DNA from: Hyphomicrobium sp.
GTDB lineage: Bacteria; Pseudomonadota; Alphaproteobacteria; Rhizobiales; Hyphomicrobiaceae
Length of the DNA: 64,000 bases
Assembly (NCBI RefSeq): GCF_019744875.1
Contig: NZ_JAIETU010000002.1
Location: 310,001 to 374,000 of the forward strand
Reading direction: 5' to 3'
The notes under the pieces were generated by a model. It was given only the letters and a program-made list of their open reading frames with translations, did no database searches and was not told where the DNA came from. Numbering within the stretch: the stretch's first letter is position 1; each line of letters opens with the position of its first letter. A program made the position numbers and the translations under genes. Positions 58,680-64,000 of the stretch are shown here, piece by piece.

Positions 58680-59765
58680 ATGCTCCGGGGCGTGCGGCTC
58701 GGCGTGATGATCGGCGCGGCGCTGCTCGGGCTTCTGCCCGAGGGCGCGCGTGCGGACATCCGGATCGGGCTCGCCGCGCCCCTGAGCGGGCGTCTGGCCG
58801 CCCAGGGGCTCGCCATGCAGCAGGCTCTTGCCGCCGCCATCAAGGACGTGAACGCGGCCGGAGGCGTGCTCGGCCAGCCGCTCATTCTCGATGTCGAAGA
58901 CGACGGGTGCGCACGTGCGAGCGGCGAAGGCGCGGCGCGCGCGCTTCTTGCGCGGGGCCCTCTGCTCGTCATCGGCCACCCCTGCTCCAGTGCCGCCACC
59001 GCTGCGGCGCCGGTCTATGGGGCTGCGAAAGTTCTGTTTATCGCCGTCGGCGCGCGCCATCCCGACGTCATGCTCGGCGGCGCGGGCGCGCCCATTTTGC
59101 GGCTCGCCGGGCGCGACGACCGGCAGGGCGATGCGGCCGCGCACTGGCTTGCGGCCCGGGCTCCTGGCAAGCGCGTCGCCATCGTGCACGACCGGACGGC
59201 CTATGCGCGTGTCATCGCAGAGCGCGCGGCGCAGGCGCTCAAGGACGCGGCGGTGGAGCTCGCCACCGTGTTTCCGATCGTGGCCGGCAAGCACAGCTAC
59301 GCGGAGACCATCGCGCGGATCGGCGACATGCACGCCGACGCGTTGTTTTTCGCAGGCTATCCGGATGAGGCGGCGGTGATGCTGGCGGGGCTTGCGGCGG
59401 CCGGCCAGACGGTGCCGGTGCTCGGCTCGGATGCGCTTGCGACCGAAGAGTTCGCGCTCGTCGCTGCCAAATCGAAGCTCAGCGTCCAGGTGCTGCTGCC
59501 TGCCGATCCGATGCCGCTCCCGCACGGCGAGGACGTGTTCGGGGCGCGTGCGCGCGGTGCGCTGGAGGTCTGGATGCAGGCGGTGGCCGCGCTTGGCTCG
59601 GCGAACGGCGAAGCGGTCGCGGCGAAGGTCCGGGACCCGATGGCGGTGCTCGATACGCCGTCGCTTGGAAAGCTGGCCTTCGATCCGGCTGGCGACCTGG
59701 CGGCCGACCCGTTTGTGACGGCGTCGGCGCGCGCAGGCGTTTGGCTCGTGGACCGGCGGCCCTGA
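58680..59765 (+). CDS. LivK-like periplasmic binding protein, second, divergent copy
   Basis: 361 residues beginning ten bases after the first copy. It has a cleavable signal peptide (RGVRLGVMIGAALLGLLPEG, ending ARA) and no lipobox. Same fold: DIRIGLAAPLSGRLAAQGLA, MQQALAAAIKDVNAAGGVLG and VIGHPCSSAATAAAPVYGAA, with DRQGDAAAHWLAARAPGKRV. It is clearly divergent from its neighbour and more alanine-rich, so the importer may take two kinds of substrate. The ligand is unknown. Confidence 0.9.
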   Translation: MLRGVRLGVMIGAALLGLLPEGARADIRIGLAAPLSGRLAAQGLAMQQALAAAIKDVNAAGGVLGQPLILDVEDDGCARASGEGAARALLARGPLLVIGHPCSSAATAAAPVYGAAKVLFIAVGARHPDVMLGGAGAPILRLAGRDDRQGDAAAHWLAARAPGKRVAIVHDRTAYARVIAERAAQALKDAAVELATVFPIVAGKHSYAETIARIGDMHADALFFAGYPDEAAVMLAGLAAAGQTVPVLGSDALATEEFALVAAKSKLSVQVLLPADPMPLPHGEDVFGARARGALEVWMQAVAALGSANGEAVAAKVRDPMAVLDTPSLGKLAFDPAGDLAADPFVTASARAGVWLVDRRP

Positions 59766-59883
59766 TCGCTGCTTTGGGAGCAGTCTTGCCCGGCCCGGTG
59801 CGGGACTTCGTTCATGATCCCGGGCGGGGCGTCGTTCATCGCCCCGGAGGGGTCCTCTGTAGCGGGCCCCGGGACGGGGACGT

Positions 59884-60081
59884 TCAGCGGCCCTGCGATT
59901 CTCTCATGCACTCCTGCGCCAGTCGGCGTTCGATGAGCGCGAGCGCCTCAGGCACCTGATATCCGTGGGCGCGATAAGCGCGAATGCGCTCCGAAACAAT
60001 TGCGTAAGAGCGGCGTGGATCGTCGATTTCTTCCAATTTGAGATTGAGCTCAGCAATCTCAGACTGCATCTGTTCGGTCAT
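59884..60081 (-). CDS. Small hypothetical helical protein
   Basis: 65 residues from the ATG at 60081, which follows AGGGGTA. It is charged and helical: MQSEIAELNLKLEEIDDPRR, SYAIVSERIRAYRAHGYQVP and EALALIERRLAQECMRESQG. No signal or membrane segment. The coding pattern and ribosome site are good, but I recognise no family. It converges on the second LivK-like gene; a 118-base gap with GC-rich imperfect repeats separates them. Confidence 0.6.
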   Translation of the reverse strand: MTEQMQSEIAELNLKLEEIDDPRRSYAIVSERIRAYRAHGYQVPEALALIERRLAQECMRESQGR

Positions 60082-60658
60082 CAATTACCCCTAAGCTTCG
60101 TCGTGTCTTCGCGGGACGAGCCGGTTCCGGCCTTCGTCGGCGAAGCGCTGTCGGTGTGCGCGCGTCTGCCGAAACTCAAATACGAACTCGAAAAGTATCA
60201 AGTCTCGGAAGACCTTGTCCTAACATTTTCGCAACAGTGTTGATCGTTGCGTTACTTGATCACCCGGCGCGGCGCATGATCTCTCATCGAACTGTGGCCC
60301 GATCTTGGCGTTTTAGGCTCACGTATTGTTGCCGAGTATTGCGTTGCAAAAATGCACTTGGGCCCTGCAGCAAAATGCAACAGATTGTGCCCGATTTCTT
60401 TTTTCGATTTCCGGCACAAAAAACGGCGACGTGATTTCGCAGTGCGAAGTTTCACCTGCCTGAATATTATGCAGGGAAAACGCCGACATTTGGGACGCCC
60501 GTCTGCTGCCCCCGACTTTCGCATGACATAGTGTCGCAAGAGCCATCCACAGCGCGGGCAGGATGCTGGCGCCCGGCGCGGCCGGATTTGCTGCCGGAGG
60601 CCGGCTCTGCTACGCCCCCGTCTCAGAGTCCCTCCCTCTTCCAGCCTGCGAGACCCGA
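60082..60658. other. Gene-free stretch upstream of purB
   Basis: About 575 bases. It must carry divergent promoters for purB and the small minus-strand gene. The 60290-60500 part is A+T-richer with several A-runs. Open frames on both strands have poor composition and no motif. I saw no convincing riboswitch or small RNA, although a purine riboswitch or small RNA cannot be excluded by eye. Confidence 0.45.
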
Positions 60659-61966: not shown

Positions 61967-62021
61967 CGCATCACGCCTTCGGGATCTGGTGCTTCCGGCA
62001 CGGCATGCGCTAGGATCGCGC

Positions 62022-63155
62022 ATGCTCACCCTGCCCGCCGCCCGCTGGACCCAGCCCGAATTCATCCGTCGCCTCGCCGTCACCTTCGCGGTGCTGGCGC
62101 TCTATCGTGTTGGCAGCAACGTACCGCTGCCGGGCATCGATGCCGCGCTTCTGTACGCGCAGGCTCCCATGCGCGGATCGGGCGCCTACATCGGGCTCGT
62201 GTCGATCATGACGCTCGGCATGACGCCGCTCTTGTCGGCGCTGATCCTCGTCGAGATGACGAAGACGTTCTGGCCGGGCTTCTGCGCGTGGGCGGCCGTG
62301 CCTCGCAAAGCCCATCGGATCGAGATCGCCGCGGTGGCCGGCGCGCTCCTGATTGCCGCGCTTCAGGCCGGCGGGCTCGCGCTCGCGCTCGAGCAGGTCG
62401 TCGGGCTCGTTCCCGAGCCTGGGTTCGGCTTCCGGGCGGGCGTCGTGGTCTCCCTGATGGCCGCGATGGCGGTTCTGATCTGGCTTGCGGCCGTGATTTC
62501 GCAACATGGCATTGGGCACGGCTTCTGGATCCTGCTGGCTGCACCCCTCATCGTGACCTTGACCCAGCGCGTGATCGAACGGGCCGGCGACTTCGGGCCG
62601 GCCGGGCCGACGGGGATTGCGCTCACGGTCCTCATGCTGGCCGTCTCGATCGCGGTGCTGGCCGCGCTGCTCAACGCGAAGCCGCCTCTCAGCGAACCGA
62701 CTGAGCCGGCCTGGGCCAGCATTCTCGGCTTCGCGCTCGTGACGTGGGTCGTGACGGGGGCATGGGTCGCTGTCGCGCTCCTCGCGCCGGAGTATGCGCC
62801 GCCCTTCGAGCAGGTGTCCCTCTACGACGCGCTGCTGCTGCTCAGCCTTGTGTGCGTGGTGCTGGTCGTCGTGATGCGGCGGCGGAGTCTCGGAAGCGCG
62901 ACCGGCGCTTCCGCAGCGGCTGCGGCGATGCCGCTCGCCGGAGCGTTGGTCGGGCTCGTTGTATTCGGGATGGTGCTTTCACATATATCGCACGCGCCAC
63001 TCCTCATTCCTCCGACGAAGGTTCTGCTGCTTGCGGCAGCGGGGCTTATCGTCCTACAGGGCATGGCGCGCCCCGAATACGAGCCGGCGGCGACGCCCTC
63101 CACGTCGACGCCTTCCAACTCCGGGGCCGTTTCACCACCCGATCCCCAGTCCTGA
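62022..63155 (+). CDS. SecY-like membrane protein (divergent SecY paralogue)
   Basis: 377 residues from the ATG at 62022, shorter than the usual 430-450 of SecY. The N-terminal third follows SecY: helix 1 end FAVLALYRVGSNVPLPGIDA (residues about 22-41; SecY has YRxGxxIPxPGI) and the helix 2b equivalent SIMTLGMTPLLSALILVEMT. The helix 4-5 loop ISQHGIGHGFWILLAAPLIV corresponds to SecY ITERGIGNG. About ten membrane segments remain. The C-terminal half is degenerate, with the ribosome-binding loop reduced, and it ends in a low-complexity tail (EPAATPSTSTPSNSGAVSPP). Housekeeping secY normally lies in a ribosomal protein operon, so this is probably an extra, specialised copy. Function unknown. Confidence 0.8.
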   Translation: MLTLPAARWTQPEFIRRLAVTFAVLALYRVGSNVPLPGIDAALLYAQAPMRGSGAYIGLVSIMTLGMTPLLSALILVEMTKTFWPGFCAWAAVPRKAHRIEIAAVAGALLIAALQAGGLALALEQVVGLVPEPGFGFRAGVVVSLMAAMAVLIWLAAVISQHGIGHGFWILLAAPLIVTLTQRVIERAGDFGPAGPTGIALTVLMLAVSIAVLAALLNAKPPLSEPTEPAWASILGFALVTWVVTGAWVAVALLAPEYAPPFEQVSLYDALLLLSLVCVVLVVVMRRRSLGSATGASAAAAAMPLAGALVGLVVFGMVLSHISHAPLLIPPTKVLLLAAAGLIVLQGMARPEYEPAATPSTSTPSNSGAVSPPDPQS

Positions 63156-63858: not shown

Positions 63859-64000
63859 TTACTTCGCCGATTCGATTTCGGTCACGGCCTTGGCCAGGAA
63901 CTCGGTCATGGCCTGGCGGATCTCGGCGTCGGCGATCGTCACGCCCTTGTCGGCGAAATCCTGCTTCACCTTGCGCAGCACGTCGTCATCGCCCTTCTCG
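63859..64000 (-). CDS. F1-ATPase inhibitor zeta subunit (DUF1476), C-terminal part
   Basis: The last 46 residues are visible; the start lies beyond the right edge. The segment EKGDDDVLRKVKQDFADKGV, then TIADAEIRQAMTEFLAKAVT and EIESAK, matches the end of alphaproteobacterial DUF1476 proteins. These are the zeta subunits that inhibit ATP hydrolysis by F1F0-ATP synthase in Paracoccus and relatives. In many Hyphomicrobiales the gene sits next to purC, which would fit the purB here, but the next gene is outside the window. Confidence 0.85.
   Translation of the reverse strand, partial: EKGDDDVLRKVKQDFADKGVTIADAEIRQAMTEFLAKAVTEIESAK

Follow-up and report, generated by a model that had tools for sequence, protein, structure and literature searches.

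The window, a 64,000-nucleotide stretch of Hyphomicrobium DNA, carries at 62022..63155 on the forward strand a second secY-like gene, whose product we call SecYp. Sequence comparison places SecYp within the SecY lineage, as one clade with one main locus, and the two testable pairs of relatives show purifying selection. Ten helices appear to be kept, whereas the TM2a plug has been cut back, as have loops 6/7 and 8/9; this assignment depends on the alignment. Since the plug and the motor-facing loops are apparently lost and selection is nevertheless maintained, SecYp probably has a membrane job unlike that of the normal channel. We tentatively favour the view that it is a motor-free, sealed helix clamp with a SecY fold, acting as an insertase or a chaperone, and place a regulator of SecYEG next.

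The SecYp frame begins with ATG at 62022, its stop codon ends at 63155 and the encoded protein has 377 aa. A putative Shine-Dalgarno sequence, AGGA (62012..62015, forward strand), lies 6 bases 5' of this ATG; with the upstream GTG (61989) as the start, the protein would have 388 aa. The earlier note took the gene for a SecY-like paralogue. Profile search agrees and does not assign it to a non-Sec transporter family: SecYp scores 42.3 bits against Pfam PF00344 (SecY, cut-off 32.2), with residues 61-214 matching only positions 1-142 of the 306 in the profile. In a phmmer search of solved structures, the best SecY chain was matched over residues 8-186 (E 1e-15). The list at E <= 1 comprises 18 sequences, namely 16 SecY chains and two receptor chains (E 0.065 and 0.16). 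By these scores, the match to SecY exceeds chance and the gene is SecY-derived. All single-sequence matches (Pfam, NCBIfam, phmmer) stop at or before approximately residue 218, so the SecY likeness is indeed concentrated N-terminally, as had been noticed from the letters.

E. coli SecY (443 aa) exceeds SecYp by 66 aa, which fits the 60-70 residues estimated earlier, but the gap to the SecY of its own genome (453 aa) is 76 aa. A search of this genome found one ordinary secY (389.6 bits) besides SecYp (41.6 bits), which rules out that SecYp is itself the housekeeping copy, a possibility the earlier note had raised. Outside the SecYp locus, the genome encodes a single SecE, a single SecG and, above the cut-off, a single SecA; a second SecA match (21.1 bits) is under the cut-off of 24.6. 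The absence of Sec and accessory Sec genes among the neighbours of SecYp, also remarked on before, holds.

We aligned 18 members of the SecYp family and compared them with 33 housekeeping SecYs using hhalign. The match (99.9%, E 9.4e-36) is collinear between SecYp residues 10-349 and SecY residues 19-427, and averaged hydropathy of the 18-member alignment has ten hydrophobic segments. The N-half (residues 10-195, 62049..62606; this and the following features are on the forward strand) corresponds to SecY TM1-TM5 (99.9%, E 7e-37 against the housekeeping N-half), while the five hydrophobic segments of the C-half align in order with TM6-10. According to the alignment and the residue map, three regions are shortened. 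The TM1-TM2 segment (residues 41-60, 62142..62201), from which the plug residues are absent, has 20 aa as compared to 32 in the housekeeping SecY of the same genome, and 10-24 across the 18 members. Loop 6/7 (C4; residues 218-230, 62673..62711) has 13 aa as compared to 37, and 13-22 across the 18 members. Loop 8/9 (C5; residues 286-303, 62877..62930), which starts with RRRS, has 18 aa as compared to 34, and 8-18 across members except for 41 in G020. In the residue map, E. coli SecY residues 60-69 (plug), 242-267 except 249-251, and 338-356 are without SecYp counterparts.

The C-terminal half had been described as degenerate with a low-complexity tail. Its loops are shortened and its homology taken alone is weak, but it keeps the five segments matching TM6-10, and as far as the alignment holds, it is better read as loop-stripped. 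The tail is real (residues 349-377, 63066..63152; 29 aa past the last hydrophobic segment) but not conserved, its length being 0-29 aa among the 18 members. Six positions which we take, from E. coli SecY numbering, to form the pore ring are hydrophobic in nearly all members (the exceptions are Y, Y, G and A among 108 cells) and are often occupied by residues bulkier than Ile, with F at the I191 site in 12 of 18. This makes SecYp probably sealed and not leaky.

The loop loss in the C-half rests on a weak alignment, since the C-half alone is unrecognised by hhalign (1.2%, score 18.4 with the best control at 14.8 against 33 SecYs; 1.7% against 60 SecYs) and weakly recognised by hmmsearch. In the latter, SecY C-halves reached 19.9 bits (E 3.3e-5 for 1000 sequences) as compared to 6.6 bits for reversed sequences and 10.6 bits for the best non-SecY decoy, and 13 of 75 SecY domain rows scored above this decoy. 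When the 18-row profile was compared with the PDB, the best-scoring SecY chains aligned from 13 to 351 in a single stretch. Chains 5ch4, 2zjs and 5aww, presumably Thermus SecY, align only as far as 289-290, and the archaeal-type chain 3mp7 over 15-178 only. An AlphaFold2 model built from a two-row alignment (the window protein and L075) had a mean pLDDT of 41.4 and a pTM of 0.28, and our reading of the protein does not draw on it.

A tree of 47 proteins (18 SecYp, a further paralogue from genome G033 and 28 housekeeping SecYs) unites the 18 SecYp in one clade (100/99), separate from the housekeeping proteins and with the G033 paralogue as its sister (99/98); the bootstrap is not fully settled, and the attachment of the SecYp clade is unsure because the branches are long. 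For the same reason, the tree distances, which in 20 genome pairs are 15.6-40.7 times as large for SecYp as for housekeeping SecY, are rough. dN/dS is 0.174 (G084/G088) and 0.165 (G117/G116) in the only two close pairs. The frames are open in the 18 members used, and 12 alignment columns are invariant in all of them. S61, E78, W90, A122, W169 and W231 are the same in 17-18 of the 18 SecYp, whereas 32-33 of the 33 housekeeping SecYs share another residue at each of these sites; the difference at L109 is weaker. Among these SecYp-fixed changes are E for the housekeeping Q in TM2 and W at positions where housekeeping SecY has S, I or L. By alignment entropy, TM1-TM3 are the most conserved part, and variability is greater from TM5 onward.

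The first screen of relatives gave a match in 57 of 60 genomes, mostly via housekeeping SecY, and a genome-contig search with four close members found one relative. Carriers were assigned from a nine-row profile search by a match extending well into the C-half, which gave 18 of the 103 genomes of the family; a contig-truncated relative in G033 was left out of this number. They include Hyphomicrobium zavarzinii ATCC 27496 (L075) and are distributed among the window's genus (6/8 genomes) and groups g8 (6/8), g5 (2/2), g23 (2/6), g14 (1/1) and g11 (1/22).

At the level of the order (397 genomes, E 1e-46), ten matches of this profile pass. Six are SecYp genes already counted above and four are frames of 453-480 aa, one of which (G256) is a housekeeping secY by score and ribosomal-operon-like neighbours. 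This threshold would miss copies as divergent as that of G097 (4.3e-43). In the class (385 genomes) and phylum (249) searches, the window scored 2e-104 and all other matches listed were weaker than 1e-54; the listed frames have at least 436 aa, apart from a G1033 frame of 333 aa and, of the two in G241, one that contains a TAG and has 403 aa. No SecYp was seen outside the family in the order, class (among the matches listed) or phylum samples. With the Pfam SecY model, 272 of 289 class genomes gave a match, few of them with two among the matches listed. Plasmid carriage was set aside, as the plasmid collection had no match at E 1e-5. In what was sampled, SecYp thus appears restricted to one bacterial family. 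As a separate observation, the two G241 matches (G241:C23:58512-59186 and 59507-60457) are neighbours on the same strand, one with an internal TAG, perhaps a tandem duplicate with one broken copy.

The G033 gene (L041:3077-4207) is a second SecY paralogue truncated by the contig end. Like SecYp it has a short TM1-TM2 segment and it is sister to the 18-member clade, but it retains a recognisable loop 8/9. The housekeeping profile gives it 147.7 bits, the SecYp profile 138.1 bits. The G033 genome is fragmented and has no PF06821 hydrolase at E 1e-30; the gene could be an intermediate form or contamination.

We propose that a secY duplicate was retained in this alphaproteobacterial family, mostly beside purB, and then remodelled. 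TM1-5, among them the gate helices TM2 and TM3, are preserved as its N-half, and SecYp-specific residues have become fixed. Loop 6/7 of SecY is part of the ribosome interface, and the seal consists of the plug and a hydrophobic ring (review PMC6028853); C4 and C5 are labelled as ribosome-binding in PMC8675477. With both loops gone, we infer that SecYp would no longer receive ribosomes or SecA. On the cytoplasmic side of SecY, the R357E substitution was suggested to interfere with how SecA is coupled to opening of the plug, although SecA still bound (PMC6021171), and it did not inhibit ribosome binding (PMC3689939). As R357E spares both kinds of binding in these reports, loss of the loop bearing R357 need not abolish docking. 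Gating of a plugless SecYp would presumably differ from that of SecY. The lateral gate would bind transmembrane helices independently of a motor, and SecYp could serve a few membrane proteins as a YidC-like insertase or chaperone. The combined loss of the plug and of the loops which control it would be coherent with a protein uncoupled from motors. A divergence this fast is, on the other hand, also compatible with a looser role.

Alternatively, SecYp may be a pseudo-translocon which binds SecE (or SecG, YidC, FtsH), moves no protein and tunes the amount of active SecYEG. We regard this as possible, if less probable than the helix clamp. With SecE and SecG each present once in the genome, SecY and SecYp could be rivals for both, and the loops that SecYp is missing are the catalytic-looking ones. 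However, the residues fixed specifically in SecYp fall in the gate half, and its presence in just 18 of 103 genomes implies that SecYEG does not need it.

The locus suggests another alternative. As the earlier note stated, SecYp is downstream of purB: the adenylosuccinate lyase gene (PF00206 and PF10397; 60659..61966, forward strand) is directly 5' of it. On the same strand, 44 bases after the SecYp stop, starts the gene of an RBBP9-like serine hydrolase (PF06821, 63200..63781). Neighbourhoods mapped by tblastn with reference neighbour genes placed SecYp after purB and ahead of purC in 13 of the 18 carriers (G000, G001, G002, G004, G006, G007, G011, G014, G082, G085, G087, G116 and G117). In the fetched stretches, three carriers have purC without purB (G034, where the contig begins there, G084 and G088), and G020 and G097 have neither.

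The hydrolase is downstream of SecYp on the same strand in 18/18 carriers, even in G020 and G097. SecYp could accordingly be imagined as a SecY fold recruited at the membrane as carrier or receptor of a lipid, ester or peptide on which this hydrolase acts, which we consider unlikely. The hydrolase is also present in 65 of 85 non-carriers, and the adjacency is explained by shared inheritance of one locus. Moreover, by a crude ORF caller, the gap between the two genes has no called gene in 11 carriers but at least one opposite-strand frame in the other 7.

It is a little less likely still that SecYp is a working protein-conducting channel for few substrates, driven by housekeeping SecA or ribosomes despite its short loops. 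The N-half is retained together with the gate and pore-ring positions, and SecY tolerates plug deletions (PMC8675477, section 5); on the other hand, the alignment shows loops 6/7 and 8/9 cut short, and the genome lacks a second SecA over the cut-off. A decaying pseudogene left by a past secY duplication, to which the large tree distances and the patchy presence among family genomes could point, is very improbable given the open frames, the dN/dS of about 0.17 in both close pairs and the 12 invariant columns.

SecYp can be compared with known systems. With housekeeping SecY (PF00344, TIGR00967) it shares the lineage, a clearly alike N-half and, as far as the alignment holds, ten hydrophobic segments in the same order, but it has a shorter plug segment and shorter loops 6/7 and 8/9 (alignment-dependent), the TIGR00967 score is well under the equivalog cut-off (66.8 bits, cut-off 253.6), the gene is outside the ribosomal-protein operon and six positions are fixed differently. 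Like SecY2, it is a second SecY beside the housekeeping one, and the N-terminal parts resemble each other. Unlike SecY2, it lacks a second SecA over the cut-off and accessory Sec neighbours and is far under the cut-offs of TIGR02920 (33.5 bits, cut-off 249.6) and NF009082 (35.4 bits, cut-off 353); these scores and the SecA count rule out that SecYp is SecY2. SecY2 is a precedent for a second SecY, though one working with SecA2 and small subunits, its partners being SecA2 and Asp4/Asp5 as given in PMC5076819. The likeness to YidC/Oxa1 would be limited to the proposed mode, insertion without motor or plug as described in PMC8675477, and neither the Pfam nor the NCBIfam matches of SecYp included a YidC model.

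We found no published description of SecYp among the titles and abstract beginnings listed from the open-licence literature on SecY paralogues, SecY-like proteins, duplicated or divergent secY and Hyphomicrobium. SecY is very conserved, and in the literature consulted the described second SecY, SecY2, operates with a motor. An apparently plugless and loop-poor SecYp that is still selected separates the SecY fold from its driving engines, and would allow tests of which SecY parts suffice to recognise helices and of whether the fold works when neither SecA nor the ribosome takes part. We hold it possible, though doubtful, that this is a selected natural SecY which has shed the plug and both motor-facing loops and acts alone as a motor-free insertase or helix chaperone. 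If so, SecYp would be a living, secondarily reached counterpart of the plugless, ungated proto-SecY proposed for early evolution by Lewis and Hegde (PMC8675477).

Eleven stretches of non-carriers were examined; ten surround the hydrolase gene, whereas that of G005 surrounds its secY. A profile search found no SecYp remnant in them, the sole strong match being the housekeeping SecY of G005. purB and the hydrolase gene are adjacent in G026, G123 and G067, approximately 12 to 175 bases apart; the gap is about 650 bases in G017, purB is some 6 kb off in G022 and was not seen in G028 and G099. The junction holds a GST frame in G118 and G029 and a DJ-1/PfpI frame in G083 (insert coordinates L126:5748-6347, L128:7915-8619 and L125:6737-7372), so it seems open to different genes. 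In G097, the gap from SecYp to the hydrolase gene contains a DUF892 gene (PF05974, L087:3907-4404) in the opposite orientation. An ATPase inhibitor subunit zeta gene (PF07345) occupies 63859-64000 on the reverse strand and continues beyond the window end; in most fetched loci it is on the opposite strand between the hydrolase gene and purC. Upstream of purB, the window has two adjacent periplasmic binding protein genes (PF13458, 57554-58669 and 58680-59765), and similar genes precede purB in several related loci.
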